In this document: in pieces, positions 7,987 to 38,239 of the stretch
Numbering within the stretch: position 1 is the stretch's first letter
Layout: the number at the start of each line of letters is the position of its first letter
From: an uncultured Oceanisphaera sp.
GTDB taxonomy: Bacteria; Pseudomonadota; Gammaproteobacteria; Enterobacterales; Aeromonadaceae
Direction of reading: 5' to 3'
DNA length: 57,524 bases
NCBI RefSeq assembly: GCF_947495715.1
Contig: NZ_CANLZU010000023.1
Location: 1-57,524, forward strand
Notes under the pieces: generated by a model
The model's input: only the letters and a program-made list of their open reading frames with translations
Told to the model about the DNA's origin: nothing
The model's database searches: none
Translations under genes and position numbers: made by a program

Positions 7987-8901
7987 ATGTTTACTCCGGC
8001 AGCCCGGTTGCGTCATACCTTTAGTGAACTCGAAACGGCCATGGCGGCACTGGCCGATCTCATTAGCCAGGCAGCCGCCACGGCGCCGGTCAATGCCTGC
8101 TGCTTTCCCCTGCCCGAGGTGGCCAGTGGCGACGAGCACGAGCCGGTCACGCACATAGAGGTGTCCCGGCTCGATGGGGCGGCGGCCATCGCGGCCACGC
8201 TGGACGGTTATCGCCAGTGGTATATTCGGCCCGGCTGTTCGGCCAAGGCCAGTTTTCGCCTGCCCGGCTACCTGGTGCTGCCCTCGGCCCTCAAGCCACC
8301 ACTTGCGGAAGTGACCGACGCCATCAACCGGCTCAAGACAGAATTCAAGGCCCGGGTGCAGGAAACCGAGGGCCGCGATCAAAAGTTTGCCCTGGTGCAT
8401 GACACCCTGCCCGGCCTTATTACCCTGCAGGTTTACCGCCAGCTGGTATTGTTACCGCACCCGGTATCGCGGCTGGGCTTTACCTGGGCCAACAAGCAGA
8501 TCATCCAGAAAATAGACAAGGACAAACTGGTCAAGCAACTCACCGACGCCCGTTTGTCTCCGCCCCCGCTCACCGATGCCCAGACCTGGATACAGTGTGT
8601 GGACCGGGAAATCTACGACGTAAAGCGGCTGCCGCCGGGGGTCGAGCTGCGCCTGCGCCGACCGGTCAAGACCCACCCCATGGTCAATGTGCGCTGGCGT
8701 GAAGACATCACCCCGCGCCAGCAACAGGTCAAGGCGCACCTGCCGCTGTTGCTGTGTCAGGACGAGCCGCCGGCGGTCACCGCGCTCGGTAACTATCCGC
8801 CCGCCACCACCCGCAAGCGACGGGCCGCCCGCATCACCGACGAGCCGCTGATCCCCCGGCTGTATATCTACCCCTACCGGCCGGAGAAGAGTGAGCCATA
8901 A
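7987..8901 (+). CDS. tus: Tus: DNA replication terminus site-binding protein
   Basis: Tus binds Ter sites and arrests replication forks from one side, confining fork fusion to the terminus. The 304-aa product (E. coli Tus is 309 aa) shares many segments remembered from E. coli Tus: FPLPEV...DEH.P...IEV near residue 40, LPGLITL near 140, WANK.II near 165, and RPVK...P in the C-terminal DNA-binding region, ending with IPRLYIYPY. A longer frame starts with TTG at 7954, but the ATG at 7987 aligns with the E. coli N-terminus. No clear ribosome site precedes it, suggesting low expression. It lies between the integron integrase and aspC. Tus is best known from Enterobacterales and some plasmids, so its presence here is notable. 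Confidence 0.9.
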   Translation: MFTPAARLRHTFSELETAMAALADLISQAAATAPVNACCFPLPEVASGDEHEPVTHIEVSRLDGAAAIAATLDGYRQWYIRPGCSAKASFRLPGYLVLPSALKPPLAEVTDAINRLKTEFKARVQETEGRDQKFALVHDTLPGLITLQVYRQLVLLPHPVSRLGFTWANKQIIQKIDKDKLVKQLTDARLSPPPLTDAQTWIQCVDREIYDVKRLPPGVELRLRRPVKTHPMVNVRWREDITPRQQQVKAHLPLLLCQDEPPAVTALGNYPPATTRKRRAARITDEPLIPRLYIYPYRPEKSEP

Positions 8902-9196
8902 ACGGGATCCGGTCGCGGGCATCCATATCAAAAACCGAACATAGCGCAGGCTGAAACGGCGCCTGCGGCAACAAGACAAGATGCATTAACGCCGTGTATC
9001 GGATCTTGCGCTTCCATTGCCCTTGTGGTCACTCGTTGCCGGCGTTACCGGCTGCGGGCTCACCCCATAGATAAGAGGATCGGGGCAGATCCGGCACTGA
9101 AAGCCGTTTTTTAATGGGGCCGCAAGTGTTATAACTAGGGGCTGTCGCGATCTGCGACCCGAAAGACACTCTTTACTACAAGGATTTAACAAGACT

Positions 9197-10387
9197 ATGT
9201 TTGAGAAGGTCACTGCTGCACCGGCCGACCCCATCCTGGGCCTGACCGATGCTTTCCGCAAAGATCCCCGTACCGACAAAATCAACCTGGGCGTGGGCAT
9301 CTATAAAGACGAAGCCGGCCAGACTCCGGTACTGCGCTGCGTTAAAAAAGCCGAAGCCCGCCTGGTGCAAGAGCAAACCACCAAAAACTATCTCAGCATA
9401 GAAGGCGTCGAGGCCTACGGTAAGGTTGTGCAACAACTGCTGTTTGGCGCCGACTCTTCCATTATTGCCAGCCAGCGTGCCCGCACCGCCCAGGCCCCCG
9501 GTGGCACCGGTGCCCTGCGCATTGCCGGTGAGTTTATCGCTCGTCAGCTCGACACCAACACCATCTGGATCTCCAACCCCACCTGGGCCAACCACAGAGC
9601 CGTGTTTACCGCCGCCGGCCTGGAAGTGAAAGAGTACGGTTACTACAACGCCGACGCCAAGGATCTGGACTTTGACGCCATGCTGGCCGATCTGGCCCAT
9701 GCCAAGGCCGGTGATGTGGTGCTGCTGCACGGCTGCTGCCACAACCCGACCGGTATCGATCCCACCGCCGAGCAGTGGGAACAACTGGCCAAATTGTCTG
9801 CCGAAAAAGGCTGGCTGCCGCTGTTCGACTTCGCCTACCAGGGCTTTGCCAGGGGCATCGAAGAAGACGCCTTCGGCCTGCGGGTCTTTGCCGAGCATAA
9901 TGTCGAGCTGATGATTGCCAGCTCTTTCTCCAAGAACTTCGGTCTGTACAACGAGCGCGTGGGTGCCTTCACCCTGGTCGCCAAAGACGCCGATACCGCC
10001 AACACCTCGTTCAGCCAGGTGAAAGGCATTATCCGCGCCAACTACTCCAACCCGCCGTCTCATGGTGCCAACGTGGTTGCCATTGTGGCCAACGATCCCG
10101 AGCTGTATCAGGACTGGCTGGCGGAGCTGGCCGAAATGCGTGATCGCATTCAGGAAATGCGCACCCTGTTCGTGGAGAAGCTGTCCAGCCGCGGCGTGAA
10201 TAAAGACTTCAGCTTTATCGCCCGCCAGAACGGCATGTTCTCGTTCTCCGGTCTGAACAAGGATCAGGTGGCCCGCCTGAAAGACGAATTCGGCATTTAC
10301 ATCGTCGGCTCCGGCCGTATCAGCGTGGCCGGTATCACCAAGTCGAACATCGACGCCCTGTGTGACGCCATCGCCGCCATTATCTGA
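9197..10387 (+). CDS. aspC: Aspartate/aromatic aminotransferase
   Basis: This PLP enzyme transfers the amino group between glutamate and oxaloacetate (or aromatic keto acids) in the cytosol. The 396-aa sequence follows E. coli AspC throughout: [15 protein letters not shown] at the start, [37 protein letters not shown], and the PLP lysine in [15 protein letters not shown] near residue 246. A TATAACT sequence at 9130 is a likely -10 element. The gene is monocistronic, ending in a strong terminator. Distinguishing AspC from TyrB by eye is not certain, but the substrate-binding segments look AspC-like. Confidence 0.93.
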
Positions 10388-10403
10388 TTACTCCATCAGA
10401 TAG

Positions 10404-10432
10404 CAAAAGGCCCCGCAGTGCGGGGCCTTTTT
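10404..10432 (+). terminator. Rho-independent terminator after aspC
   Basis: GGCCCCGC-AGT-GCGGGGCC hairpin followed by a T run and preceded by an A run. It could also serve the convergent diguanylate cyclase gene. Confidence 0.9.
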
Positions 10433-10501
10433 CGTTTATGGTCGCAACCGGTTCACGTATTCATTCCGGTCAGCACCTGCGCTCGCTCAAAACGACTGCC
10501 T

Positions 10502-12361
10502 CTATGGGCATTCGCTCCTTGCTTCATCGGCCAACCGGCAAACACGCCCTTTGCCCCCGGCCTTGGCACCGTACATGGCATTATCGGCGCGGCTCAACAG
10601 CTCGTCGGCACTGTCACCGTCTTGTGGATACACCGCAATGCCGATAGAGGCCGACACCTGCAGTTGATGCTCTCCCCAGGATAAGGGCGCAGACAATAGC
10701 GCCAGTATCGACTCGGCAATATCCCGGGTCACCTTCTCATCGTTAACCGAATCAAGCAGGATCACAAACTCGTCGCCGCCGATACGGGCGCAGCAATCGG
10801 TGGCGCGAAACCGGTTTATCAGCCGCTGGCCCAGCGCCGTCAACAAGGCATCGCCGGCGTCGTGGCCGTGGGTGTCGTTCAACATCTTGAAACCGTCCAA
10901 ATCGATAAACAACAGGGCAAAAGACTGTTGCTCACGCCGGGCCCGATGAATGCTGCGCATCAGCTGTTCATTGAGCAGGCTACGATTGGCCAGGCCGGTC
11001 AGGGAGTCGTGCAACGCCAGATACTGAATCTGTTCCTGCTGTTGCTGTCGTTCCAGAATCAGTGCCGTTAAATGTGAAATGCGCTGAATCACCATCTGCT
11101 CATGCAAGCCGGGATGGCTTTTATGACGAGGAAACACCGCCAACAGACTCTGAGACATTTGGGTACTGAGCTGAATCGGCATTAACCAGCAGCCGTTCAT
11201 CTCATAATCCCGTGCCAGCGTCAGCCAGGATTGCCAATGCGTACCGGGCTCTTTCGCCACAAAAACCTGCAACTGCCCCTGCTGCAACCCCGGCCGTAAT
11301 ACGCGCAGCAGGCTGTCGGTCTGCAGTTGATACAGCCGCTGCGAGAAGGACTCCGGCAACCCGGGAGCATGGTCAACCCGCAACCGCTCATTCGTGTCCA
11401 TCTGTAACACCGCCACCCGGCAGCAATCCAGTTGTCGTTCCAGTGCCAAACACAGATGAGTCAGTATGTTGGCGGGCTGCTCGCCGGCGGTCGCCATTTC
11501 CAGCATTTCCCGTTCCAGGCGCAACAGGGCGTCAGACCGCTCCCGCTCGGTAATGTCCTGTCCGGTATAGATCAGATAACGAAGCAGCTGATCACCGTCG
11601 CGCACCGCTTTTATGGTCCAGCGAACATGCATCGACTCTCCGCCGGCATTGCTCATGCGACAGGTAAACGGCCGGGGTTCATCATGGTGGCCGCGACCAT
11701 CCGGCAGGTGTTTGAGGCTGTCGAGACCCAGCAGCATTTTCAGCGGTTGGCCGTGTACTTCTTCTTCATTGACGCCGGTCTGCAACTCGCAACTGCGGTT
11801 GATGTTGACGATGCGGCCATGGGTGTCGGTCACCACCACCAGGGCACTGATGGTCTTGAGTACCGTATCGATAAACTGTTTTTCTTCGGTCAGTACCTGA
11901 TGCACCTTGCGCAGCGCCTGCTCTTTATCGCGCAAATGACGCTCGCGCCGCACCGCATTGGTGGTGTCGTGCAACTGCACCAGTGTCAGCCCTTCTGCAT
12001 CGTCCAGCGGGCGTAGCAGCATGGAATGATGAATCGGAGTGCGGGCACCGGACACGGTACGGCCATGCAACGGCAGTAGCTGGGTATGCAGCTGATGAGA
12101 CAGCAGACGAGACAAACGATGTTCGCAGGCATCACCAATCGCCGACAGCACCACGGGCGGCAAGGGGCCGTCAAACAACTGCTCCAACCGCTGGCCACCG
12201 GCCGTATCGGCATCAATGCCCGTATAGCGCACCAGCCACTGATTCCAGAATCGCACCCGTCGCTCACTGTCCAGCAGCATGATACCGCTTTCTATATAAT
12301 CCAGCGTCATCATGCTCATGTGCTGTCGGTTTGCTATCCGTGATGGATTCGTCATCGTCAT
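10502..12361 (-). CDS. Diguanylate cyclase with PAS and GAF-type sensor domains
   Basis: The 619-aa protein would make c-di-GMP from two GTP. Order: an N-terminal PAS domain (about 20-130), a second PAS domain (about 165-280, with VVTDTHGRIVNINRSCE), a GAF-like region (about 290-430), then a complete GGDEF domain (about 450-615) with the intact GGDEF signature and an RATD inhibitory I-site five residues before it. No EAL domain and no membrane segments were seen, so a soluble sensor-cyclase is expected. It is the last gene of a three-gene operon and overlaps the CheC-like gene by ATGA, so it is translationally coupled. The ligand of the sensor domains is unknown. Confidence 0.9.
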   Translation of the reverse strand: MTMTNPSRIANRQHMSMMTLDYIESGIMLLDSERRVRFWNQWLVRYTGIDADTAGGQRLEQLFDGPLPPVVLSAIGDACEHRLSRLLSHQLHTQLLPLHGRTVSGARTPIHHSMLLRPLDDAEGLTLVQLHDTTNAVRRERHLRDKEQALRKVHQVLTEEKQFIDTVLKTISALVVVTDTHGRIVNINRSCELQTGVNEEEVHGQPLKMLLGLDSLKHLPDGRGHHDEPRPFTCRMSNAGGESMHVRWTIKAVRDGDQLLRYLIYTGQDITERERSDALLRLEREMLEMATAGEQPANILTHLCLALERQLDCCRVAVLQMDTNERLRVDHAPGLPESFSQRLYQLQTDSLLRVLRPGLQQGQLQVFVAKEPGTHWQSWLTLARDYEMNGCWLMPIQLSTQMSQSLLAVFPRHKSHPGLHEQMVIQRISHLTALILERQQQQEQIQYLALHDSLTGLANRSLLNEQLMRSIHRARREQQSFALLFIDLDGFKMLNDTHGHDAGDALLTALGQRLINRFRATDCCARIGGDEFVILLDSVNDEKVTRDIAESILALLSAPLSWGEHQLQVSASIGIAVYPQDGDSADELLSRADNAMYGAKAGGKGRVCRLADEARSECP

Positions 12362-24993: not shown

Positions 24994-25851
24994 TCAGGCA
25001 TCTTCGGCCGCTTCACGTATGCGCTCTCTGCGATCCTGCTCTTCTTCCCTCGCCGCTTGTATTTCTTCCAGCACCGAGTCTACATCGGCGTTATCGCCGC
25101 TATCTTCAAATTCACCGGTGAGTGTGGAATTGGGCGTCAGGTTACCCTCTTCAAACAGCGCCCACATTTCCTTGGCATATTGGGTATGTAACAAGGCGGG
25201 AGCAAACTCGCCATAGTAACGTCGCATATTGTTGACGTCGCGGGCGAACATGGCTTGGGCGCTGTTGTTGGCGGCGGCATTCACCGCTTGGGGCAGGTCG
25301 ATAATCACCGGGCCCTGATCATCCACCAGCACGTTGAATTCGGACAAGTCGCCGTGAATAATGCCCACACACAGCATCAGCTTGATGTAATGCATCATCA
25401 GCGCGTGATCTTCCATCGCCTGCTGTTCCGACATGGTCACTTCACCGAGTCGTGGAGCAACATCGCCCTCGGCGTCGGTCACCAGCTCCATGAGCAGTAC
25501 GCCATCAACACAGCCAAAGGTGTTGGGTACACGTACATTGGCATTGGCTAACGCGGATAAGGCATCGACTTCGGCATTCTGCCAGATTTTTTCCTCCAGC
25601 TGGCGGCCATAGCTTGAACGCTTTTCCATGGCGCGAGCCTGCCGGCCACCGCGCACCTTTCGCCCTTCCTGATATTGCGCCGCCTTTTTAAAGCTGCGTT
25701 TAGCGGCGTCTTTATAAACCTTGGCGCAACGAATATGCTCACCACAGCGAACAACAAAAATGTCGGCTTCTTTACCGCTCATCAGGCGGCTGAGCACGTC
25801 ATCGATTAAACCGTCTTCGACGAGAGGCTGTAGGCGTTTGGGTATTTTCAC
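24994..25851 (-). CDS. RIO-type serine kinase
   Basis: The 285-aa protein has the RIO kinase elements: a flexible P-loop region SGKEADIFVVR near 27 with the Lys of AKVYKD near 44, LVMELV-type hinge (VLLMELVTD near 120), the catalytic loop IHGDLSEFNVLV near 165, and the metal-binding IDLPQAV near 182. The C-terminus is an acidic/basic helix. Bacterial RIO kinases autophosphorylate; substrates are mostly unknown. The next gene downstream is the convergent-strand neighbour pseudouridine synthase only by position, so no operon partner is evident. Confidence 0.88.
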   Translation of the reverse strand: MKIPKRLQPLVEDGLIDDVLSRLMSGKEADIFVVRCGEHIRCAKVYKDAAKRSFKKAAQYQEGRKVRGGRQARAMEKRSSYGRQLEEKIWQNAEVDALSALANANVRVPNTFGCVDGVLLMELVTDAEGDVAPRLGEVTMSEQQAMEDHALMMHYIKLMLCVGIIHGDLSEFNVLVDDQGPVIIDLPQAVNAAANNSAQAMFARDVNNMRRYYGEFAPALLHTQYAKEMWALFEEGNLTPNSTLTGEFEDSGDNADVDSVLEEIQAAREEEQDRRERIREAAEDA

Positions 25852-25926
25852 AGGCGGCCTGCTGAGTTGGGTCGGCTATTGATCATTGTTTATTGAATCT
25901 GTTCCGTATGTTTGGTGTGTTTCTGA

Positions 25927-26640
25927 TTAAAACGGACAAGGGCAGTGTCCATGAAAGGGCTCGCCGCTGGCAGGGTGTGCAAAATATAAATCACTGGCGT
26001 GCAACAGCAACCGATCGGCCATTTGCTCACTCTGTTCATTGTTATAAAGATCACAGCCCAGAATGGGATGGCCTATGGCCTGGCTGTGAATGCGTAACTG
26101 ATGGGTACGGCCGGTAACCGGGGTAAATTGCACCCGGCTGCGGCGCGGTTGCTCCAGACGCTGTAATACCCGATATTCGCTGGTGGCGGCCTTGCCGCTG
26201 GTGTGGCAAATTTTTACGCGAGGAAAATGCTGTTTATCTTTCGCGATGGCGGCGGTGATCAGCCCCTGATCGTCTGCCATCCAACCATCCAGCATGGCCA
26301 GATACCGCTTTTGAATGGCTCGCGTCTGAAACTGGTTATTGAGGTGTTGTGCAGACCCCGCATTCAACCCCACCACCATGATGCCCGAGGTGCCGAAATC
26401 CAGCCGATGCGGTAACTTGGCCTCGGGAAAGGCAGGCGTCACTCCGGCCTGGCCGTTGACCAGACGATAGTGTACCGAATCCCGATTGAGCGGATTTTTA
26501 CCCGACAAACTGAGCAGACCGCTGGGTTTGTTGATCAACAGAATGTCGTCATCCTGATAGAGAATCACCACAACATCGTCACACACAGGTGCCACAAAAT
26601 CATCATTGATGGTGTGAGCCGACCGGGCGATACCAGGCAT
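25927..26640 (-). CDS. RluA-family RNA pseudouridine synthase
   Basis: The start at 26640 (MPGIARSAH) is preferred since GGGGA stands 6 nt upstream; the longer frame lacks such a site. The 237-aa product contains the family motif II with catalytic Asp, PHRLDFGTSGIMV near residue 80, ILYQDDDILLINKPSGLLS near 30, and GRTHQLRIH near 180. There is no S4 domain, so it is of the short RluA/TruC type. It isomerises uridine in rRNA or tRNA; the target site cannot be read from sequence. Confidence 0.88.
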   Translation of the reverse strand: MPGIARSAHTINDDFVAPVCDDVVVILYQDDDILLINKPSGLLSLSGKNPLNRDSVHYRLVNGQAGVTPAFPEAKLPHRLDFGTSGIMVVGLNAGSAQHLNNQFQTRAIQKRYLAMLDGWMADDQGLITAAIAKDKQHFPRVKICHTSGKAATSEYRVLQRLEQPRRSRVQFTPVTGRTHQLRIHSQAIGHPILGCDLYNNEQSEQMADRLLLHASDLYFAHPASGEPFHGHCPCPF

Positions 26641-26666
26641 TATATTCCCCGCTATTGATATACATA

Positions 26667-26713
26667 GGCCGGTGCCGCCCATGAGAGACCCATGTGGGCG
26701 GCACCGGCTTCAC
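26667..26713. terminator. Long perfect hairpin between helicase and pseudouridine synthase genes
   Basis: GCCGGTGCCGCCCA and TGGGCGGCACCGGC form a 14-bp perfect stem around a 13-nt loop. It follows the helicase stop region by position and lacks a strong T run, so it may be a terminator or an mRNA 3'-end stabiliser. Confidence 0.55.
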
Positions 26714-26729
26714 TCACAACGAAAAGAGC

Positions 26730-28124
26730 TTAACGTGAGTGTTGTTCGGCACGCTTGCCGCGTAATATTTTTTTCTTCGGACCGGTGCTTTTGCCGTTAT
26801 TGGTCTTTTTCAGGCGCACGGGTCTCGCCGTGGTCTTGCCGCCCGTTTCATTACCGCTGTTGGCGCGGCGGGGTTTGCCTTTAAACTTGCCGTTACCTGA
26901 ACCTTCCAGCTCAATCACGGTTTCACTGGCTTTGTTTGAACGCCCGGACAACACCTTGCGCGAGATGGTTTTCAACAGTGAACCACGGTCACTCACTTCA
27001 AAGCCCGGCTTGATGATACGTTTGATGTCGGTACCAATCAGCTTTTTAATACGCTCCAGGGTTTGCTCTTCTTCACGGCTCACAAAGGAAATGGCAGTGC
27101 CTTTCGCCCCTGCCCGACCGGTGCGACCGATACGGTGCACGTAATCTTCCGGCAAATACGGCAGGTTGAAGTTCACCACATAATCCAGGCCCTGAATATC
27201 CAGACCACGGGCCGCCACTTCGGTGGCGATCAGAATCTGGAGTTTACCGGATTTAAAATCGGCAATGGCACGGCGTCTTGAACCCTGGCTTTTATCGCCA
27301 TGACACACTGCCGCTTCAATCTTTTTCTTTTTCAGACCGGCCAGCAGTCGCTCGGCCTGCTCCTTGGTACTGGTAAACACCAACACCTGGAACCAGTTTT
27401 TCTCTTCCAGCAGCTGTTCGAACAATTCGATTTTGCGGCTTTCTTCTACCGCATACACCGCATGTCTTACGGTCTCGGCCGTGCTGTTGATTTTGGTCAC
27501 GCGGATCTGCTGATGATTATTCAGCACCTTGTGTGACAACTCGTTGACTGCCGGTGAAGTGGTGGCAGAAAACAGCAGGGTTTGGCGCTTGGGCGCGGTC
27601 AGTTGCATCAACTTCAGCACATCGGTGATAAAGCCCATGTCCAGCATGCGGTCGGCTTCATCCAGTACCACAAATTCAACGTCACTCAAGGTCACATTAC
27701 CCAGGGTAAGGTGCTCCATCAAACGGCCGGGGGTGCTGATCACGATATCAACGCCTGCTTTTAACTTGTTGGCCTGGCCACCCATTTTAACGCCACCGTA
27801 CAGGGCCGTTACGCTGATGGGCACAAACTTCGCGTAGCCATTAATGGCGTCGGCCAACTGCTCGGCCAGTTCGCGGGTTGGTGTCAGGATCAAGGTGCGA
27901 GGGCGACGCTCAACGGTTGCCTTGGGCTTGTCCAGCATGCGTTGCAGCACGGGCACGGCAAAGGCGGCGGTTTTACCGGTACCGGTTTGCGCGGTTACCT
28001 GCAAGTCTTTACCGCGACGGGCCGGCACAATGGCCTGAGTTTGTACGGGAGTCATTGCACTGTAGCCACATTCCACAAGAGCGCGTTGCAGATCCGGGGC
28101 CAAATCTAAAGATGAAAATTGCAT
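26730..28124 (-). CDS. DEAD-box RNA helicase, RhlE-like
   Basis: All core motifs are present: Q motif F..L.L...L..AL...GY..MTPVQ, I AQTGTGKT near 50, Ia PTRELAEQ, Ib STPGRL, II DEAD near 155, III SAT, IV VFTSTKEQ, V ATEVAARGLDIQGLDYVVNF, VI HRIGRTGRAG. The C-terminus (about 380-464) is basic and Gly/Asn/Lys-rich, typical for RNA contact in RhlE/SrmB-type proteins. It unwinds short RNA duplexes in ribosome assembly or mRNA decay. Which paralogue it is (RhlE versus another) is uncertain. Confidence 0.93.
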   Translation of the reverse strand: MQFSSLDLAPDLQRALVECGYSAMTPVQTQAIVPARRGKDLQVTAQTGTGKTAAFAVPVLQRMLDKPKATVERRPRTLILTPTRELAEQLADAINGYAKFVPISVTALYGGVKMGGQANKLKAGVDIVISTPGRLMEHLTLGNVTLSDVEFVVLDEADRMLDMGFITDVLKLMQLTAPKRQTLLFSATTSPAVNELSHKVLNNHQQIRVTKINSTAETVRHAVYAVEESRKIELFEQLLEEKNWFQVLVFTSTKEQAERLLAGLKKKKIEAAVCHGDKSQGSRRRAIADFKSGKLQILIATEVAARGLDIQGLDYVVNFNLPYLPEDYVHRIGRTGRAGAKGTAISFVSREEEQTLERIKKLIGTDIKRIIKPGFEVSDRGSLLKTISRKVLSGRSNKASETVIELEGSGNGKFKGKPRRANSGNETGGKTTARPVRLKKTNNGKSTGPKKKILRGKRAEQHSR

Positions 28125-28450
28125 GAGAGATCCTCTGTAGAGTCGCTACAGTCAAAAAAATGAGGGCAGAATATACAGTATTTTAGTGTGGGAAGAGAGG
28201 TTTGTTTGTCAGTTGGGTGAATTTTGTACAGCCTTGCTCGGATGGAAAAATGAAGGGAACGGGACGCTATGGCACGGGTGCCGGAGTCAAAAAAGCATCA
28301 GGGCTATGCCAAAAAGGAGCCCCGACTCAATCCGCGAAGGGCAGCGTAAACAGGCAGGCGTTGGTTAAACATGTGCGGCTTCACCCCGGGCCTGCCCGCT
28401 GCACCTTGCACGCCTATCGGCTGCGATAAGCGTCTTGTGGCCGGGTCTGA
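28125..28450. other. Gene-free stretch upstream of the helicase
   Basis: About 325 bp between the helicase start and the DUF6172 gene stop. Short open frames exist on the plus strand but show no domain, ribosome site or codon pattern like their neighbours. Nothing else recognised apart from the expected helicase promoter. Confidence 0.45.
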
Positions 28451-28762
28451 TCAGGCTTCGGCGTCGTCCGCAACAGCCGACTTCGGCTGGTGGTTACACG
28501 CGCGGGCAAGAATCTCGACATAGAATTCGGGCAGTTCCTGCGCTACGGCTGCATCGATATGCTTGTTGATTTCAGAGGTAAAGATCGCTTCTGCTGCCGC
28601 TTCAGAGGCACCAAAACGACAATCGAAGGTCCAGTAGTCCATGCCGGCGGGCAGCGACTTGCGACGCTCTCTGTTGAGGTACTTTTTAATATCATGCTTG
28701 ATTGAGTCCACCAGGCGAGCAGGTTGCAGCTTGGGGTGAGTTAACGCGATAGTCTTTTTCAT
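28451..28762 (-). CDS. DUF6172-like hypothetical protein, 103 aa
   Basis: The ATG at 28762 (MKKTIALTHPK) has TAGGA 8 nt upstream; the longer frame adds seven residues without a better site. The sequence MKKTI.LTHPK..PARLV...KHDIKKYL.RERRK.LP.G.DYW.FDC.FG recalls a small conserved proteobacterial family of unknown role. The central WTFDCRFG and FTSEINKHID segments suggest a compact alpha/beta fold. Function unknown. Confidence 0.75.
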   Translation of the reverse strand: MKKTIALTHPKLQPARLVDSIKHDIKKYLNRERRKSLPAGMDYWTFDCRFGASEAAAEAIFTSEINKHIDAAVAQELPEFYVEILARACNHQPKSAVADDAEA

Positions 28763-29051
28763 GGATTTCCTACAGAAGTGCACTCAAGAGTTCAAGAATA
28801 AAGCTGAATGAGCTTTTAAAAGCGTATTCTACATGGATGAGTAGCAGATAACTGCCAATTTCTGCGACTTTCTGCCTCGAAAAAGGCAGTAAACGGCTCT
28901 GCATGGCACTTTATCAGCCGCCGCTATGCCGGTCTGGCACACCGGTGCCGGATTTTAAACCAAACCGGATATACCGGCGATTACCCCTTGTGGTTGCGCA
29001 GGTTACCTCCACCGCACTGCTGTGTTGCCGGCAGCAAAATCGGGCCAAGTC

Positions 29052-30365
29052 TCATGGTTTATCTTCGGCGTTCTGGGTCGGAAAAAGGTTTTCATCCTCT
29101 TCCATGACGGGCGTGAGCGGCTCGCCTTCCTCGTCCTGAAGCTGGTAATCGAACGCCGCCTGCAGGCCGGTTTCGTCCTTGATCTCTTCAACCTCTTCAT
29201 GCTCGGGCTCCGGGTCAAGGTAGCGCGGGTACAGCGGCGACAAGAGGGACACCAGAATACCAACCGCGGCAAAGGTGGCAAACGCATCGGCGTAGCCGAA
29301 TTCATGTATCAGCACCCCAACCACCGGTGAGCCGGCCGCCTGCCCCAGTGCCACGGCCATGAATGGCAGCACAGGTCCCATCGACAGTCGGCCCGGCAGC
29401 AGCCGAATGCCGGTCATCAAATAAAGCCCGGTCAGACTCATGTAAGCCAGGCCGAACACCAGGGCAGAAAATGCGCTGAGCACCAGTTGGCCGGGGCTGG
29501 CCGCCAACAGAGCCAGGCTTGCAGACAACATCACCAGCATCAGCGCGTGCGTAATGGGTGGATTGTTGCGATCGGCCAGATCGGCTATTACGGCCCCGCC
29601 AAGACCGGCAATGCCCACCGCCAGCCACAGCCAGCCGGTTGCGCCAGACGGCAGGTCGCCGAGGGTGGCCATCAGGTCGGGGGCGAAAATCCAGTATGCC
29701 GACGAGATAAAGCCCATCAGGAAGGCAAACAACGACAGCCTGAACAGACGAGACCACTGCAATGCACTGACGGCAGGCGGCGGCGCCGCGTCTGTTGGCG
29801 TGATCCGTGACACAGAAGGAATAAAGAACCAGGCAGACACCATGCCGATGCCCGCCAGCACGGCAAAAGAGACATACGCAAAACGCCAGGCGCCGGCCAT
29901 CAGCAGCACCGCCGGTACCGCAACCGCCACTCCAATGCTGGTACCCGCGTTCATGACCGCGCTGACGCGCCCGTGCAACGAACGCGCTACCAGCGCCTGC
30001 ATGGCCGCCGTGAGTGCCGGCATCATCAGGCCGGTGCAGATGCCACAGGCAAACACCCCTGCGCCAAGCGCTAACGCGTTGTCGGCCCGGCTGATCAACG
30101 CCAGCCCGACAACACCAAAGCCCGCAGACAACACCGCCGTATTGCGGGCTCCGAGGCGATCGGCGGCCATCGGCGCCACCAGTGTCGCCAGCAAAAAACT
30201 GATCAGCGGCAACGCACCGATAATGCCGATTACCGACGGCGTTAGCGCCAGTTCGGCGCGAATGGGCGGCACAAACAGCCCGAAGGCGAAGCGCGCAAGT
30301 CCAAAGCTGATGGCAATCAGCACGGCACCAAACAGTGCAAACCCGGTACTGGAAAGCGTCTTCAT
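29052..30365 (-). CDS. MFS transporter
   Basis: The start at 30365 (MKTLSSTGFAL) has GGGAGG 4-5 nt upstream. The 437-aa protein has twelve predicted membrane helices. LARFAFGLFVPPIRAEL in helix 1, the MFS loop 2-3 motif ADRLGARN near 70, and a second-half NNPPITH loop are visible. An unusually acidic C-terminal tail of about 55 residues (DPEPEHEEVEEIKDE and following) extends beyond the last helix. The family resembles YbfB/CynX-type exporters. Substrate unknown; no regulator is adjacent. Confidence 0.85.
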   Translation of the reverse strand: MKTLSSTGFALFGAVLIAISFGLARFAFGLFVPPIRAELALTPSVIGIIGALPLISFLLATLVAPMAADRLGARNTAVLSAGFGVVGLALISRADNALALGAGVFACGICTGLMMPALTAAMQALVARSLHGRVSAVMNAGTSIGVAVAVPAVLLMAGAWRFAYVSFAVLAGIGMVSAWFFIPSVSRITPTDAAPPPAVSALQWSRLFRLSLFAFLMGFISSAYWIFAPDLMATLGDLPSGATGWLWLAVGIAGLGGAVIADLADRNNPPITHALMLVMLSASLALLAASPGQLVLSAFSALVFGLAYMSLTGLYLMTGIRLLPGRLSMGPVLPFMAVALGQAAGSPVVGVLIHEFGYADAFATFAAVGILVSLLSPLYPRYLDPEPEHEEVEEIKDETGLQAAFDYQLQDEEGEPLTPVMEEDENLFPTQNAEDKP

Positions 30366-30888
30366 GTCGCCTCCCGGCAGGCATTCCCCACTCGCTTTTG
30401 TTTCATCTCGGCCTTCGCCTCCGACGCGCAACAATCGCCCTGATGCACAACATCCGACTTCGCGTTTATCACCATGCAGCCCTCGCACAAGGCCGGAATG
30501 CCGGCCAGGACATAGCTCTTCATACGGATGAGTATAGGGCCTATCAACAACATGTATTGACGGTCACCAGAGTGTATCAAGCGCCCGTTTCAAGGTGCAT
30601 AAGCGCCTCGCTACCAAAACCCCTTTTCGCCCGCGCCTTTCCGCCGTGCCCGCCGATAACGGAACCGCAATCATCACCATAAAAACAGATAGTATCGAGA
30701 GTGGGGTCTGATTACAGGAGTTTCCACTTGGTGTTCTTTCGTCACTCCCCACGTGCGCTTTTGTCATTCCCACGAAAACGGGAATCCAGAGCTTATAGAA
30801 TGTTCGGACTGCAAGCCGCCTGCAAAGTACTGCCGACCCTGATATCTATACTCATATGATTGGGCAATCATTTTTCCCTGTTCATTTT
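30366..30888. other. Gene-free stretch with an inverted-repeat copy at its end
   Basis: No convincing gene. It contains the MFS promoter region, and at 30763-30791 a dispersed repeat GTCATTCCCACGAAAACGGG-AATCC. An inverted copy of that repeat lies on the other side of the next two genes (32743-32773). Confidence 0.55.
30763..30791 (+). repeat. Dispersed CATTCCC...GGGAATCC repeat, left of island
   Basis: CATTCCC-ACGAAAAC-GGGAATCC is a small hairpin. Related copies are at 32743-32773 (inverted) and 42801-42860 (two facing copies). Confidence 0.75.
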
Positions 30889-31566
30889 TCATTCTACCAA
30901 TATCGCACTGACTCGGGCACCTTGCTGATCAAGTGTAAAGTGTCCCGTTACCACCAGCGTTAAATTTAAGTCCTCTGGCACCTGGCCCCTAAAAAAGTTA
31001 GATACATGCTCAAAATCATCAATGCCAGAAATAAAATCGATAGAAAATGAAATAATAATAAACAATGCCTTTAATTTTGTGTAATCAATTGAATCCACAA
31101 AATACTGTTCAAAGTAGTCCATATAGAAGTGTTCTTCTTTGGTATAACCTCCGCTGTATAAGGTTGCCGTGCTGCCTTCACGCATCACAAAGCGAAAGTC
31201 ACCAAAATCCACACCTATCATATTATCACTGGTCAGAGTGTCTATAATATCATTTATAAAAACCTTATAACTTCCATCACTGACAACAAGCACTTTATCA
31301 ATAATATCGGGGCAGTCAATTCCAGAATAAGGTTTTTCTGCTGTAGTGAGTATCAAAGTTAACGCATCTTTTGATCTTATATCATCTTGATTAGCACTCA
31401 ACCACTCAAGGTCAGGCTCTATTAAAATAAAAAAATCGACTTCAACTGAAATGCTGCCTGCTTCATCTTTATCTACCAGATGAACTTTCGACAAACCATC
31501 AAGACATTCCGAGCTGAAATTAATAACATTAGTAACCAAAGAGCTGGCACTTTTAACATTAAACAT
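30889..31566 (-). CDS. Divergent compact FtsZ-like protein lacking the GTP-binding signature
   Basis: The 225-aa protein aligns by eye with FtsZ from residue about 10 to the end. The central helix and T7 loop FINDIIDTLTSDNMIGVDFGD matches the FtsZ GIAELIT..G.MNVDFAD region. The C-terminal domain follows (VMREGSTATLYSGG, then DFISGIDDFEHVSNFFRG, then LTLVVTGHF...GARVSAIL). The two T7-loop acidic residues that complete the GTPase site of the neighbouring subunit are kept (D120, D123), with Asn replaced by Gly. The tubulin signature GGGTGTG and the Gly-rich first loop are absent: the strand DFFILIEP runs straight into a shortened region. FtsZ is about 380 aa, so the nucleotide domain is strongly reduced. 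AGGT lies before the ATG. It is downstream of a caspase-like gene in an AT-rich island. It may act as an FtsZ cap or decoy; this is inference. Confidence 0.72.
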   Translation of the reverse strand: MFNVKSASSLVTNVINFSSECLDGLSKVHLVDKDEAGSISVEVDFFILIEPDLEWLSANQDDIRSKDALTLILTTAEKPYSGIDCPDIIDKVLVVSDGSYKVFINDIIDTLTSDNMIGVDFGDFRFVMREGSTATLYSGGYTKEEHFYMDYFEQYFVDSIDYTKLKALFIIISFSIDFISGIDDFEHVSNFFRGQVPEDLNLTLVVTGHFTLDQQGARVSAILVE

Positions 31567-31803
31567 AAATTACCTATTTATTAGGAAAGCATCTATTATT
31601 TAAGTAACTCGGCATAAATGTGTGGATAAACATTAATCCGCGTCAATGCTGGCAAGGCACTCAGGCAAACACTTCCACATCATTTACGCAAGGGCACTTA
31701 AAATTCTTAAAAAAATCCTAATGTAACTCCAAACCCAACCCCTGGCGTATAAAATTATGCCACAAATTAAGAATCACATTTAAACGCTTTTAGTTATGAC
31801 CAG

Positions 31804-32505
31804 TTATATCTGTAGCGATTTCATTACTGCAAAAACCTCTGCACTTACAGATCTAGCGCGTTTCCCTTGACCATTGGGCTGCATTACAAACTGAAGCGAA
31901 TCTTCCAGAGGAACTGCATTTCCGTTATAATCTTCACCTATATGGAATGAATTTGAAAATGCCGCAATCGAATTAGCAAAGTGGTGTATTATTTCGTTCT
32001 TGTCTGAATAATCACTTTCATCTAACTCAGACATTCCTGACAAAATAGCACAGTCAATTAGCGTGCCTTCAAGCCACTTTGATGTGGAGGAATAACCTAC
32101 GCACCACTTCAGATTATTGCCTTCCAAGAAAACTTCCATTGTACTAGAGTTCTCACCAACAAAGCACGATCCTAACATTAACCCCGTAATATTACATTCA
32201 TTGGATTTCAGCCCAACTTCCCAGATAAGATCAGAAATTGAAATATTACCAATTTTTTTCTTATAGCCATGAGCTGCAATATATACAGTGGTGTTTTTAA
32301 ACTTTCTTTTACATAAACAATTTAAAGCCTTTATAAAACTACTTTTATCATAGAAATTTGCGTGATAAACCTCAGTATCACCAGCAAGTTTCCCTATACC
32401 TTCAACGAAAGGAGTAACACTTGTTCTATTTGAATCGTTACAATCTAACTCCCATGGAGATTCCAGAATCAATATTGCTCGATTAGAACTATGCTGTTTT
32501 TTCAT
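31804..32505 (-). CDS. Putative caspase-fold (His/Cys) peptidase, DUF6642/CHAT-like
   Basis: The 233-aa protein starts with ILILESPWE followed by a variable segment (VTPFVEG.....DTEVYHANFYDK). It then has a hydrophobic strand ending in the His of TVYIAAHGYKKK (His79) and a second strand ending in the Cys of ITGLMLGSCFVGE (Cys114). This strand-HG...strand-xC order is the catalytic dyad layout of caspase-clan (CD) peptidases and CHAT domains. The segment LKWCVGYSS...W matches what I recall of the DUF6642 family. No signal peptide or membrane helix. AAGGATAAT precedes the ATG. The FtsZ-like gene follows 237 bp downstream on the same strand. Peptidase activity is inferred from two residues and fold order only. 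Confidence 0.6.
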   Translation of the reverse strand: MKKQHSSNRAILILESPWELDCNDSNRTSVTPFVEGIGKLAGDTEVYHANFYDKSSFIKALNCLCKRKFKNTTVYIAAHGYKKKIGNISISDLIWEVGLKSNECNITGLMLGSCFVGENSSTMEVFLEGNNLKWCVGYSSTSKWLEGTLIDCAILSGMSELDESDYSDKNEIIHHFANSIAAFSNSFHIGEDYNGNAVPLEDSLQFVMQPNGQGKRARSVSAEVFAVMKSLQI

Positions 32506-32742
32506 ATTATTATCCTTTTATACTTAGAGACCAGTTTTTTCATGATCTTGCCCTTCCATACTTTTACACACTGTTTTACTCATTTTTCTGAAAGCAGGCA
32601 CGCTACCGCACGAATCTTGCGGGCGATCTGGCCTCTCCCTTCCCTGTTTGTTGTGAGGCGCTGTTACCGGCATTTACATTGAACTCGAATGAAGCCCTGC
32701 ATTATACGGGGCAAGGGTTGCAGATTGGAAGCATCTCAACCA

Positions 32743-32773
32743 CTGGATTCCCGCTTTCGCTGGAATGACGACA
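32743..32773 (-). repeat. Dispersed CATTCCC...GGGAATCC repeat, right of island (inverted copy)
   Basis: CTGGATTCCCGCTTTCGCTGG-AATGACGAC is the reverse complement of the repeat type at 30763-30791. The two copies face each other across the AT-rich two-gene island. Confidence 0.75.
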
Positions 32774-32823
32774 TAAGTCCTGGGCTATTTGAGTAGTTCA
32801 GGCCACGCCGACATTAGCAGGAA

Positions 32824-32920
32824 GACAAAGGGATCGGCTCAGCCGACCTTCCGCGCCACGGGTGGCGCGGCTGAGCCCCGGATGTATTTACGGCGAGTGG
32901 CGGAGTCGCCCCTTTGTCCG
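32824..32920 (-). repeat. Long hairpin repeat with variable stem (copy 1)
   Basis: Outer arms GACAAAGGG and CCCTTTGTC bracket GGCTCAGCCGACC, a palindrome CCGCGCCAC-GG-GTGGCGCGG at 32851-32870, and GATGTATTTACGGCGAG. It is in inverse orientation to the copy at 41740-41840. Confidence 0.75.
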
Positions 32921-32944
32921 ACAAACTGAGAGTTACACACATAC

Positions 32945-32982
32945 AAAAAGCCCCGCGACCTTTCGGTTGCGGGGCTTTGTTT
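32945..32982 (-). terminator. Rho-independent terminator downstream of mukB
   Basis: AAAGCCCCGC-GACCTTTCGGTT-GCGGGGCTTT hairpin with A and T runs on both sides, so it works on either strand. It lies about 140 bp beyond the mukB stop. Confidence 0.85.
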
Positions 32983-32998
32983 CTTGGGGCGTTAATTA

Positions 32999-33023
32999 AG
33001 GTCCACTGAAGTGGACCCTACGG
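32999..33023. repeat. TGAA-loop hairpin repeat
   Basis: GGTCCAC-TGAA-GTGGACC followed by CTACGG. It is the reverse image of the TTCA-loop hairpins at 43909-44175 and 51968-51989, with a different stem sequence. Confidence 0.7.
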
Positions 33024-33119
33024 TAAGGCAGGGTAGCAACACCCCCACCCTGCCTCCCCCTGGCATAGCGCCGCCATTATGCCTGCCGGGCCGCAGCCAA
33101 GGGGGAGGAGTAGATAGAA

Positions 33120-36100
33120 TTACACCACCGCTTCGCCGGCAAAGCCGCGCAGGCCCACTACGTGTACGTGTTCCTGCTTGCCGTGCACCTTGCGGATCAG
33201 CTTGTAGGTGGTGCCTTTTTCCGGGCTGATGTTCTCGGGCGCGGCAATCAGCAGCTGCATGTCCTGCCGTTCGCACAGCTCGAACAGGGTAGCGATGGAG
33301 CGGGCGTCCAGTCGGGCCGCTTCATCCAGGAACAACAGCCGGCAGGGCAATACGTCTTTGCTGCGCAGATGGCGGGATTCTTCTTCCCAGCTCTGCAGCA
33401 CCATCAACAGAATGGCCTGGCCGGTACCAATGGCTTCACCGGTAGACAGGGCGCCGCTTTCGGCACGCAGCCAGCCGTCGGCACCACGCTGCACTTCAAT
33501 GCCCAGATCCAGGTAGTTGCGATAATCCAGCAACGCCTGACCCAGCACCTGCGGGCTGCGGTCTCCCTGCTCCAGTTGCGGGTTCAGCCGCTGGAACAAC
33601 TTGCCCATCGCTTCCGAGAAGCTCAGCTCCTTGCTGCTGAACAGGTCCTGATGGCGACCTTCGGGGTCGCTCAGCGCCTCCAGCAGGCGGCCGTAGGTGT
33701 CGCGAATGTTCACGTTCAGGCGCACGCCGGCCACCAGACCAAAGCTGATGTTCTGCAGGCCCTGGTTAAGCTGGCGAATACGGTTCTGCTCGCGGCGAAT
33801 AATGGTGTTGATCTTGGCCGCCACTTCCACCGACGACAGCGACAACTGGCCTTCGCGCAGTTGCAGCTCGTCGGCCAGCCGGCCCAGCTCCACTTCCATT
33901 TCTTCCAGCGCTTCCACCGGATCGTCGGCCCGGATGATGTCGTGCCGAATACGAGCCTTGAGGTGACTGAACACCAGGATGTAGAACTGCACCTTCTGCA
34001 GGGTATTGCGGTTGCCCTCAGAGAGGCGCAGCGCGTCACGCAACTCTTCGTCGTGAGCCACCGCCAGGCGCAGGGCACCCAGCGCCTTGTCGGAAATGGA
34101 ACGCAGCTCGTCGGCATCCAGATACGCCAGCTCGGGCCGGGCCAGGCGGCGCACCACGTCGTTGTCGCGCGCCAGTCGCACCACCTTGGCCCAGTTGGCC
34201 TTGTGGGCCACCAGTGCCTTGCGGGCGGCAAAATAGCCCTGGCCGTCTTTGCCGAGGCGCTGACTCAAGGATTCGATTTCGCGCTTGCTCACCTGGCGCT
34301 GGGCCTCGGTCTGGCTGCGCTTGCCACGGGTGTGCACCAGCTCGTTTTCAATGGAACGCTTGGCCTCGCGGGCCTTGTCTTCCATGTCGGACGCAAGCTG
34401 AATGCCCAGGGCGGTCAGCTCGTCACGGAATTCGTTAAGGGTGGCGCTTCTTGCATCGCGGCCGGTTACCAGCGCGGTGCGGGCCTGCAGGGCGTCGGTC
34501 AGGCGACCGTTCAACTGCTCGGCACGCAACCCGGCCTTGCGACGGGTTTCTTCCGCCTGCACCAGCTTGGCCTTGAGGCTGTCATTCATGGCCGAGCTTT
34601 GATCCAGCAACTGCTCGGCGTCGGCATAGGCCAGGTGCGGCAGTCGGGCCACCAGCTGGGTCAGGGCGTAGGTACGGTTACGCGCTTCGGTCAGCTCGGC
34701 CTCGGCCTCGGCCACCTGCTGTTGCAGGGCGTCGAATCCGGCGGGATCCTGGCGCAATACCTGCACCTGCTCGGCCAGGCGCCCCAGGCGCTGGCCGTGG
34801 GCGGCCATGAAGTCGCGGGCCGTATCCAGCTGGGCCATTTCTTCACGGGCGGCGGCCAGGCGTAGGGCCAGGCCCTCGTCGGCCAGCCAGTCTGCCAAGG
34901 GCAACAGCTTGTGCAACAGGCTCTGCTGCTCGCGCAGCTGGTTGCGCCGGGCCTGCCACTGATCGCGCTGGGCGGCAATGGTGGCCAGCTCCTGTTCCAG
35001 CTGATGCTGCTGGGCAGCCAGTTGTTCCAGTGCCGCTTCCGGATTATCGCCAAAGGCCAGTTGCAGGCCCTGACCAACAAACTCACTCAACTGGTGATAC
35101 AGGCGGCTGTGCTTCTGCTGGGCAAAGGCCGACTCGGCATAACGGGCGCTCACGGTTTCCAGTTCGGCGCTCAGTTGCTCGATTTTGCCCTCGCGGGCGG
35201 CGCGGCCAAACATCGGCTCGGTCGGAAAACGGGAATAACGCAGCTGGCGTTCGCCGTTTTTCACCCAGATGGCGCCGTCCAGCTCGGTGGCGTGCAGCAG
35301 GTCTTCGTCAAAGGCGTCCGGGTTGCCCTGGATCAGGTACAAGTCTGCCGGGCACGACTCCAGTGCCTGCAGTTGCTCCAACGCCGCCTGCGGGTCGGCC
35401 ACCACTATGCCGTTGCGGGCCGGGCCATACAACGCCTCGTAATAGGGCGCATCGTCTACGGCAATGTCGTCGTATACGTCGGCCAGCAGAGTACCGCCCA
35501 GCTGTTCGCACAGGGCAATCAGCCGTGGATCGGCGTCAACGCCGCTGCTCAGGCCGCGAATTTGCTGTTCCAGCTGCTGCTTGGTGGCCAGAGACTGCTG
35601 CTTGCTCTGCTCGGCCTGATGCTCGTCGCGCAGCGCCTGCTGCATGGCGGCAGTCACCTCGTTGCTGTCACTCAGCGGCAGGCCGGACAATTCGCGCAGC
35701 CGCTCCAGCTGCTGTTGGGCCTTGTGCCAGGCAGGAGCCTGGCCGCGCAGCGCGGTCACCTGCGGCGCAATCTGCCCCAGGCGAGACTGGCTTTGGCGCT
35801 GGGCGTCGGCACAGTCGGCCAGTTTTTCTTCCAGCTCGGTTTTTTGCTCGTCCAGCTCCGCCAGTTGCAGTTCCAACTCTGCTTCGTCCTGCACCGGACG
35901 GCCCAGCCGGGCCAGCTCGGCCTGCAGCGCCGTGGCTTTTTCGCGCTTGCAGGCGCCCTGCTCGGCGTCCTGCAACTGGCGACGAATGGCGCCGTCGCGC
36001 GCCAGCAGCGCCTGATATTCCCTGCCCTGCTCCAACAACTGGTTGGCGCGGGCAAAGGCGGACTCGCGGCTCACGTTACCGTCGATGGCCTGCAACAGCG

Positions 36101-37571
36101 ACAGCGCCTGATCGTATTGCGCACGAGCGGCTTCGGCGAGCGAGAGCTGCTGGCGTTGTTCCAGCACCACGGCGGTTTGGGCCTGCTCGCGTTGCTGGTG
36201 CGCCTGCTCTTCGGCTTTGGCCTGCTCCGGGCTCAGCTCCGGCAGGCCGCAGCGCACCTTGGCTTCACCCAGGGCCTGACGGGCCTGACGATACTGAATG
36301 GCGCGGGTCTGCTGGGTGTCGAGCGCCTGCTGATAATCGGCCAGCTGGCTCTTGAGGCTGTCCACCTCTTCTTCGGCCGCCGCTTTGGTGGCGGTGGCTT
36401 CCTGCTGTTCGTCCTGCAGCTCGGCCAGGGTTTCTTCCTGAATGGCGAGCTTTTCTTCCAGCTCGTCCAGCTCCAGCTGATAACCGGTGATCTTTTCGTT
36501 GAGCTTGACCCCGCTCAGCACCCGCGCCAGATGCTCGGAGGCGATGTCCAGCTCGTCACCCAGCATGCGCTCGCGGGAGCCCAGGTGTTCCAGCTCGTCG
36601 GCCAGATAAATCAGCCGGGCCCGCTCTTCGGCCAGAATGCGGCGCTCTTCGGCCAGCGCCTTGCGCGCCGACAATGCCTGCTCCGACAGCCGCTTTTTCT
36701 CGGCGCTGTTGCGCACGTAGTCGGCGGCCACATAGTGGGTGGTTTCGGTGATCAGCTGGCGAAACAGATCCCGCTGACGCTGGGTTTCGCGAATGGCTTC
36801 CAGGGTACGGCGGTTCTCGAAAATCGCCGCTTCCATGTCGTTGAACGCCTTGCGAATACCGGCATTTTCCGGCAGCAGGTAGTCTTTGAGGCTGCGGCTG
36901 ATGGTGCTGGAAATACCGCCGTACAAGGAGGCTTCGATCAGGCGATAGAACTTGACCCGATCGCGCTGATCCTTGAGCTTGCGCGGGGTAACGCCGGTAT
37001 CGAACAGAAAATTATGATACTCGCTCACCGTATTGAAACGGGTAAAGCGCAGCCCGTCCTGCTGGGCCACCGCCTTCAGCTCGTTGAGCGAACGCACCTG
37101 GCCGCGGCCGTCGTCCAGCCGGTGCAGCAGCAGCGCGGTAGGCGTATGTTCGGGCTTGATGCCCTGCACGCTGAAGGGCGTGAGATTGACCTTGTTGTCG
37201 CGGTTGGCTACCTGCTCCAGGTGCACACCAAACCAGACCCGTTCGCCCTGCGAGGTGTCGACCTCAATCATCGAATAGCAGTGGCCGCGCTGCAGCTTGC
37301 CGTACAGGCCCTTGTCGCGGCTGCCGGACTGGCTGCCCGCCTCTGTGGTGTTGCGAAAGTGCAGCAGGCTGAGATCGGGGATCAAGGCGGCAATAAAGGC
37401 GGCCATGGTGGTGGACTTGCCGGCGCCGTTACCGCCGGACAGCGTGGTCACCAGGGTGTCCAGCTCGAAGGTACGGGCAAAAAAGCCGTTCCAGTTAACC
37501 ATGGTCAGGGAATGAAACTTGCCCCGGCTGAAGGTGTTCAAGGTGTTTTCGGGCGTCGCTGAGGTGCTCAC
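33120..37571 (-). CDS. mukB: MukB: SMC-like chromosome condensin subunit
   Basis: MukB is the ATPase/DNA-binding dimer of MukBEF, which extrudes loops and organises the chromosome. At 1483 aa it matches the E. coli length (1486). The head has Walker [11 protein letters not shown] near residue 46 and, at the far end, the ABC signature [11 protein letters not shown] near 1370 and Walker [12 protein letters not shown] near 1405. Between lie two very long coiled coils and a hinge (about 640-790, [22 protein letters not shown]). The ATG overlaps the mukE stop by 4 bp. In E. coli MukBEF is kept out of the terminus by MatP, relevant given tus in the same window. Confidence 0.98.
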
Positions 37572-38239
37572 TGCTCGTTCTCCTGCTCTTCATCCTGGTC
37601 GTGGCCGGCCACCGCCTCGCCGTCTTTAATCATGCGCAACTGCAGTTCGCGCGGATCTTCGTCACTGCGCACGTCGGCGGCAAAGCGAAACACCGCTTCG
37701 GTAATGCGAAACTTGTCCTGGCTGCCCACGGCGCTGACCATGCCCAGCCGTTTGAGCCGGCGAATGGCGCTTTTCAGCTTGTCGGCCAGCTTGCGTTTGT
37801 CCAGATCACTGCCGCCGGCTCGCTGGTTGACCATGCGCAGCAGCGCGGCCTCGTTGGCCAGGGTCAGCACTTCTTCCTGCAAATCGAGCAGGGAAAAGAC
37901 CCCTTCGTTGATCAAGCGGTCCGGGCTCAGATACAGGTAGCACAGTACCTTGCCCACCAGCATTTCCAGCTCGGACAGAATGGAGGTGCCCAGCTCGCTG
38001 GTGGAGCGCGGGCGCAGGTAATAAAAGCCCTCGGGGGCGCGCACCAGTTCAACGTGATAGCGCTGATAAAAGGCTTCCAGCTCCGGGTAATACTCCTGCA
38101 GCAGCGAATGCTGCTCCAGCTCGTCGGCGCTGATGTGGCGGCCGGCACGCAGCTGGTTGTCCAGCGCCGGAAACAGCGGGTTGGCAATGGCCTGAACCAG
38201 ACGCGGGTCCAGGGCGAGATCAGTATTGGTCGATAACAT
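37568..38239 (-). CDS. mukE: MukE: condensin accessory subunit
   Basis: MukE binds the MukF kleisin and regulates MukB. The 223-aa product has the winged-helix layout of MukE with conserved [16 protein letters not shown]-type N-terminus ([13 protein letters not shown] near 14), [23 protein letters not shown] near 58 and [24 protein letters not shown] near 85. An acidic C-terminal tail follows. It overlaps mukF by 20 bp and mukB by 4 bp, so the three are co-translated. Confidence 0.97.

Follow-up and report, generated by a model that had tools for sequence, protein, structure and literature searches.

A low-GC island between REP-like repeats

Two neighbouring genes were studied on the minus strand of the window (the whole stretch of DNA that was analysed, 57,524 nucleotides long), with a gene for a caspase-like protein upstream and, downstream of it, a gene for a degenerate FtsZ that we refer to as FtsZ-dg. 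The ORF coordinates confirmed that both reading frames are present, on the same strand, where the first-pass annotation of this DNA had placed them. The features of the island are the following:

32505..31804, minus strand: gene of the caspase-like cysteine peptidase (probable clan CD), 233 aa, ATG start, with His79 and Cys114
31567..31803, no strand: spacer of 237 bp between the caspase-like and FtsZ-dg genes, from the ORF coordinates
31566..30889, minus strand: gene of FtsZ-dg, an FtsZ derivative lacking the GTP site, 225 aa, ATG start, with T7-loop Asp120 and Asp123
31198..31209, minus strand: codons 120-123 (D-F-G-D) of FtsZ-dg, corresponding to the T7 catalytic aspartates of FtsZ (computed from the ATG at 31566; invariance taken from alignments)
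30763..30794, minus strand: REP-like repeat arm at the left end of the island
32738..32769, plus strand: REP-like repeat arm at the right end; the two arms form an inverted pair of 32 nt, 84% complementary, with an exact 25-nt core

Both ORFs have a GC content of 36%, against ~60-65% for the surrounding DNA (bins at least 1 kb away from the island were mostly at 59-70%), in a source genome of 3.65 Mb. The island is bordered on one side by an MFS transporter gene (29052..30488, MFS_1) and on the other by a gene that we take, from its sequence, to be of the MukB type (33120..37571). The 25-nt core of the REP-like repeat occurred in two exact copies in the window, plus one copy with three mismatches (0 expected), and among the compared loci it was found in none except those covering the island region. 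A consensus scan of the spacer revealed neither promoter-like nor terminator-like sites, and no tRNA was found at 25000-38000. A 30-nt direct repeat (32496-32525 and 32534-32563, 77% alike) spans the start and leader of the caspase-like gene.

The 3' flank of mukB varied among the 11 sister genomes compared, with two contigs stopping there, and the island site is thus a variable one; owing to this variable flank and the two contig ends, a clean empty site beside mukB was found in none of the 11. Because the two genes share their GC content and lie between flanking REP-like repeats, the data suggest that they were transferred jointly into the mukB-side site. A toxin-antitoxin reading of the island genes was weighed by eye only and was set aside.

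The caspase-like family

Clan CD peptidases have a characteristic order of residues, in which HG comes after one hydrophobic stretch and [S/A]C after the next. The protein encoded by the first gene carries HG at positions 79-80 and GSC at positions 112-114, and the caspase-type dyad that had been read from this motif (His79 and Cys114) held across the family: His79, Gly80 and Cys114 were invariant in 21 of 21 full-length family members, at identities down to 24%. These sequences comprise a 17-row alignment (A4) and four others from a 5-row alignment (A1), two truncated matches having been excluded from the invariance count (L050 and L055, the former falling below the peptidase profile threshold of 1e-5). 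The family has a typical length of ~233 aa. A clan-CD-like regular expression, designed after the family was known, matched all 17 members of A4, and among 200000 shuffled versions of the window protein it matched 36; when 396 background ORFs were scanned, the four that matched were family members, leaving 0 of 392 unrelated ORFs.

The family libraries gave little to set beside this motif. Pfam and NCBIfam contained no match for the window protein, and none of the 17 members hit a Peptidase_C14 or CHAT model in Pfam at E values up to 1. Matches to the 17 members were weak and to unrelated families, five in Pfam (best E 0.054) and eight in NCBIfam (best E 0.0031, in a single member), while PADLOC returned only PDC-M62A (E 0.021), for one member of the 17, the window protein. 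A profile search of the PDB with the family yielded nothing meaningful. Judging from the motif and its invariance, the first gene probably encodes a stand-alone caspase-type (clan CD) cysteine peptidase.

Relatives of this protein are scattered. One was found among 197 other genomes searched (G061, 79%), others on three plasmids, and at least 18 loci among 84,980 species genomes, a search that used short conserved patterns and was not exhaustive. The hosts include Shewanella, Methylomonas, Dickeya, Halomonas and its kin, Marichromatium, Pseudomonas and Vibrio, among others; in viral contigs, pattern scans confirmed no relative. In the single measurable pair (Dickeya), dN/dS was 0.065.

Several of the loci lie near genes recognised by defence models: Hhe and type I RM (L038), WYL and type I RM (L051), mads_8-like (L039), PDC-S28 (L046) and BrxC (L048). 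The ten neighbours scanned, nine of which matched, had been picked as defence-looking from 184 neighbouring ORFs, each 90 aa or longer and no further than 5 kb away, at 20 loci, and for this reason the match rate is no test of enrichment. Two related groups of neighbouring genes, each with an L051 member called WYL by PADLOC, recurred within 5 kb in 6 of the 20 loci. We also observed a short gene of one family after the caspase-like gene in three Vibrio loci (L037 8768-9430, L053 8868-9497 and L054 8910-9530), the L037 copy having no Pfam match, and, in Shewanella sp. ANA-3 (L048 8010-13590), a caspase-like gene just upstream of two short genes and BrxC (BREX) on the same strand.

Caspase-like proteins take part in several bacterial immune systems, and passages of one report (PMC12799240) name Thoeris, gasdermin and type III CRISPR besides canu, in which a nuclease gene lies downstream of the caspase gene. 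The window family resembles these systems in encoding a probable caspase-type peptidase, some of whose loci lie near defence genes. It differs from them in being a stand-alone protein of ~233 aa with no conserved partner and no clear family match, and in the window its gene is followed on the strand by that of FtsZ-dg rather than by a nuclease gene. Since no partner is conserved across the caspase-like loci, a partner-activating role as in canu is not supported, and the peptidase would most simply be a stand-alone effector.

An FtsZ derivative that keeps the T7 aspartates

Unlike FtsZ itself (PF00091 Tubulin and PF12327 FtsZ_C), the protein encoded by the second gene had no match in Pfam. Its relationship emerged from more sensitive comparisons. 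The single sequence gave modest evidence: a phmmer search of PDB chains matched FtsZ (E 0.0041), and 128 of 198 genomes, the source genome included, gave a match, which in most of them was to canonical FtsZ (E 5.8e-6 at best). With a profile of six FtsZ-dg copies, the E value against FtsZ in the PDB dropped to 6.5e-7. Finally, hhalign aligned seven copies with eight FtsZ sequences over 207 columns (probability 97.3%, E 2.6e-11 in a single comparison), which confirms statistically the degenerate FtsZ homologue proposed at first pass. On the strength of these profile comparisons, the second ORF is a true FtsZ derivative.

The homology begins at the strand that precedes the T4 loop and continues through the whole of the C-terminal domain. 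A T1-like glycine loop or the T4 motif GGGTxTG was present in none of the seven clear copies, while both loops were present in the two FtsZ2 proteins (second FtsZ proteins, see below) that were checked; with the two motifs missing in 7/7 copies, GTP binding should be lost. By contrast with these loops, the two T7-loop aspartates (D120 and D123 in the window) were kept in all seven copies. They were the only FtsZ residues retained throughout in one alignment, and a second alignment, of six copies, added F185. The T7-loop asparagine was found in no copy (0/7, by alignment), and the region of helix H7 is shortened. The C-terminal conserved peptide of FtsZ is absent from the window copy and was found in one of the seven, that of G010, which ends in LDVPAFLRQ. 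Extra or truncated FtsZ paralogues occur elsewhere, as with FtsZ1 and FtsZ3 of Agrobacterium and FtsZ2 of rhizobia. FtsZ-dg resembles these in being a second, reduced FtsZ beside a canonical one, but they keep the GTPase half, whereas FtsZ-dg keeps the opposite half.

Such a protein could also be a decaying FtsZ duplicate without function. The copies have lost the GTP-binding loops and share 17-25% identity with that of the window, and the gene has a patchy distribution, in 5 of the 23 genomes of the genus. A tandem pair of copies in one genome (G005) gave a dN/dS of about 1.0. Against decay, all seven reading frames are intact (225-272 aa) and share seven invariant residues, the two T7 aspartates among them; dN/dS between a G005 copy (G005a) and that of G010 was 0.37, and in Vibrio nereis the FtsZ-dg ORF overlaps the ORFs on both sides of it. 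We consider simple decay quite improbable.

Six copies were found in the window's own genus, which from the make-up of the family we take to be one of the Oceanimonas/Oceanisphaera/Zobellella type in the Aeromonadaceae: those of the window, G017, G022 and G010 and the tandem pair of G005. The G010 and G005 copies share a chromosomal locus with what we take, from their sequences, to be terC and pxpABC; no defence gene was apparent near these three copies in two genomes. The tandem duplicate (L087 7262-9170) has a pxpA-like fragment upstream. Outside the genus a single clear copy was found, in V. nereis. The wider searches covered 52 other genomes of the family, samples of 394 genomes of the order, 369 of the class (with a 3-copy profile) and 398 of the phylum, and 148 relatives of V. 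nereis including itself (in which G930 has the coordinates of G010). At their E limits of 1e-8 to 1e-10, at which divergent copies would escape, such as a possible one in Methylomonas described below (L039), they returned a short copy outside the genus only in V. nereis, the other rows being frames of at least 387 aa that we read as canonical FtsZ. Pattern scans confirmed no relative in viral contigs, phage records matched the V. nereis protein only through an annotated FtsZ, and plasmids gave nothing against the window protein at E values up to 0.01.

Two of the six other copies lie amid defence genes recognised by PADLOC. The G017 copy is flanked by genes for HEC-01, a type III methyltransferase and a helicase at one end and, at the other, by a GIY-YIG gene of the PD-T4-3 type, and the G022 copy adjoins two GmrSD-type proteins; here too, the neighbours scanned had been picked as defence-looking (8/10 matched), and this was no enrichment test. 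These surroundings, together with the fast divergence of the copies, raised the possibility that FtsZ-dg serves as a decoy for, or a sensor of, phage inhibitors of division: its T7-loop face would soak them up or signal their presence, protecting FtsZ or triggering immunity. Passages of one report (PMC13423816) fit this idea, in that CapRel-Ebc senses a complex of FtsZ with Gp0.4, and a model places Gp0.4 on the synergy-loop face, like SulA and MciZ. A decoy, however, would be expected to preserve the whole inhibitor-binding surface and not two catalytic acids, and the identity of the window protein to the two FtsZ of its own genome is 14-19%; the three copies at the terC-pxpABC locus also speak against it. 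We regard a decoy function as doubtful.

Pairing, FtsZ2 and a tentative docking mechanism

The first-pass annotation had suggested that the two genes could form a module for growth arrest or anti-phage defence, considered here as one in which the peptidase would cleave the FtsZ mimic or be triggered by it. Systems of a caspase and a partner are known, canu being one example (in passages of PMC12799240), and the window offers several arguments for the idea: the genes lie on the same strand with no terminator-like site between them, have an equally low GC content and are enclosed by one REP-like pair. Their spacer, on the other hand, is 237 bp long. Co-occurrence was assessed in an unfiltered search of 2299 ORFs from 22 other caspase-like loci (two truncated matches included, and one locus at two lengths) with the 7-copy FtsZ-dg profile. 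There was no match at E values up to 1 in 21 of the 22 loci. In the remaining one, from a Methylomonas MAG, one ORF may be FtsZ-like, with an E of 5.2e-4 in the set of 2299 ORFs:

L039, 10398-11351, minus strand: FtsZ-like ORF, 317 aa (the other copies are shorter), at 1.7 kb from the caspase-like gene, on the opposite strand and with two ORFs between

This ORF scored 16.7 bits against the FtsZ-dg profile, whereas 1000 shuffles reached at most 7.7. Of the 13 PDB matches listed for it, 10 were to FtsZ (lowest E 0.11), and hhalign with the single sequence gave an E of 0.0013 against FtsZ-dg and of 0.26, not significant alone, against canonical FtsZ. The first T7 aspartate is kept and the second is replaced by Glu. 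The ORF is probably a distant, degenerate FtsZ, and its locus is a hint, not proof, of a link between caspase-like and FtsZ-like genes. Extending the profile with this protein yielded no additional paired locus.

The reciprocal search gave the same picture. No caspase-like gene was found within 17-19.5 kb around each of the six other clear FtsZ-dg copies (0/6, the lowest E being 0.93), and no caspase-like match was obtained anywhere, at E values up to 0.001, in the four genomes of the genus that carry five of these copies. V. nereis carries both genes, on different contigs; it is one of 18 genomes reached through caspase-like loci, and the samples of the order and the phylum contained no clear FtsZ-dg outside the genus, a coincidence that favours some association. 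Among the literature matches listed, titles and abstract openings mentioned neither a caspase-FtsZ pair nor a GTP-less FtsZ of this kind. With the partner not nearby in 21/22 caspase-like loci and around 6/6 FtsZ-dg copies, the co-occurrence on which the proposed module depends was not borne out beyond the L039 case, where the strands, the intervening ORFs and the similarity to canonical FtsZ count against it, and a two-gene module appears rather unlikely. On present evidence, the window pair would be two accessory genes in one AT-rich island between REP-like repeats, not a conserved two-gene system. Defence genes were near some loci of each gene, among chosen neighbours, and none was apparent near the three FtsZ-dg copies at the shared chromosomal locus; a role in defence or growth arrest is compatible with such neighbourhoods.

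Another partner was suggested by V. nereis. In its L141 locus (8380-12338), the FtsZ-dg ORF overlaps an upstream ORF for a second FtsZ (FtsZ2) and a downstream WYL ORF, which is followed by an ORF for a PDDEXK_4 nuclease. V. nereis FtsZ2 is of the GTPase type, with Tubulin and FtsZ_C domains and intact GTP loops, and the four genes are possibly an undescribed operon. In the window's genus, all 23 genomes have a second FtsZ match, at 644-681 bp from a gene of the WYL type; the product of this gene did not match Pfam WYL, only WCX just below the cut-off. The source genome has its own FtsZ2 (G000:C3:167159-169059; L002, L094), a protein of 359 aa that keeps the GTP loops and the C-terminal peptide and whose gene adjoins that of a WYL-type regulator. 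The regulator alone was also present in 37 of the 52 other genomes of the family. No FtsZ-dg copy lies beside FtsZ2 in the window's genus.

One could imagine from this arrangement a two-subunit FtsZ, in which FtsZ2 would bind GTP and FtsZ-dg would supply the T7 catalytic half only, the two being encoded in V. nereis with a WYL regulator and a PD-(D/E)XK nuclease; they might act, through their polymer, as a switch in stress or phage defence, and FtsZ-dg would spread alone into islands such as that of the window. We think this scheme unlikely.

The reading that we prefer, tentatively and at a probability of about 0.42, is that FtsZ-dg binds through its T7 face to the GTP face of FtsZ or FtsZ2, restraining division or the FtsZ2 polymer, the two island genes being accessory and not a conserved pair. 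In FtsZ, the T7-loop aspartates extend into the neighbouring subunit's GTP site. Passages of PMC8936486 describe how D210 and D213 of Staphylococcus aureus FtsZ hold the water that attacks the GTP of the neighbouring subunit, and state that an incoming subunit is thought to add via its GTP-bound top surface. We infer docking, an effect on polymers and a biological role for FtsZ-dg as follows. A paralogue that has lost the GTP-binding loops and retains the C-terminal domain with the two T7-loop aspartates would use its T7 face to dock on canonical FtsZ or FtsZ2, at the face that carries the GTP. As FtsZ-dg would have no GTP face of its own, nothing could add behind it, and its binding would sequester subunits or end filaments. 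GTP turnover would be altered, and division or the FtsZ2 polymer would be restrained, probably under stress or phage attack. The proposed outcome, a block of subunit addition, is that of SulA, MciZ, Gp0.4 and Kil. The face would differ: SulA, MciZ and Gp0.4 attach to FtsZ at its T7 face (in passages of PMC13423816), whereas FtsZ-dg would itself supply a T7 face and occupy the GTP face, on the opposite side, of its partner.

The evidence for docking is the retention of the T7 aspartates in 7/7 copies with the GTP loops in 0/7, the overlap with the FtsZ2 and WYL genes and the adjacent PDDEXK_4 gene in V. nereis, the second FtsZ near a WYL-type gene throughout the genus, and the C-terminal peptide of the G010 copy. 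In view of the possible V. nereis operon, FtsZ2 would be the likelier natural partner. Several observations weigh against docking. The T7 aspartates rank among the most conserved FtsZ residues anyway, and the second is Glu if the Methylomonas ORF is counted. The T7 asparagine is lost in 7/7 copies, so that catalysis on the GTP of a partner may be poor. The dN/dS of the G005 tandem also fits relaxed constraint, and FtsZ2 has no FtsZ-dg beside it in the window's genus. That the two island genes are unpaired is consistent with the rarity of the pairing (1 weak case in 22), but the Methylomonas locus leaves space for a real link to the caspase-like gene.

The stand-alone caspase-like family, which has no clear match in the family libraries, is a candidate defence peptidase, with several of its loci near genes of Hhe, type I RM, BREX or WYL. 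A GTP-less FtsZ paralogue with the catalytic T7 aspartates would amount to a naturally occurring separation-of-function FtsZ. FtsZ-dg could be used to test whether half an FtsZ caps, sequesters or activates the GTPase of the real one, and may offer a route to natural division inhibitors.
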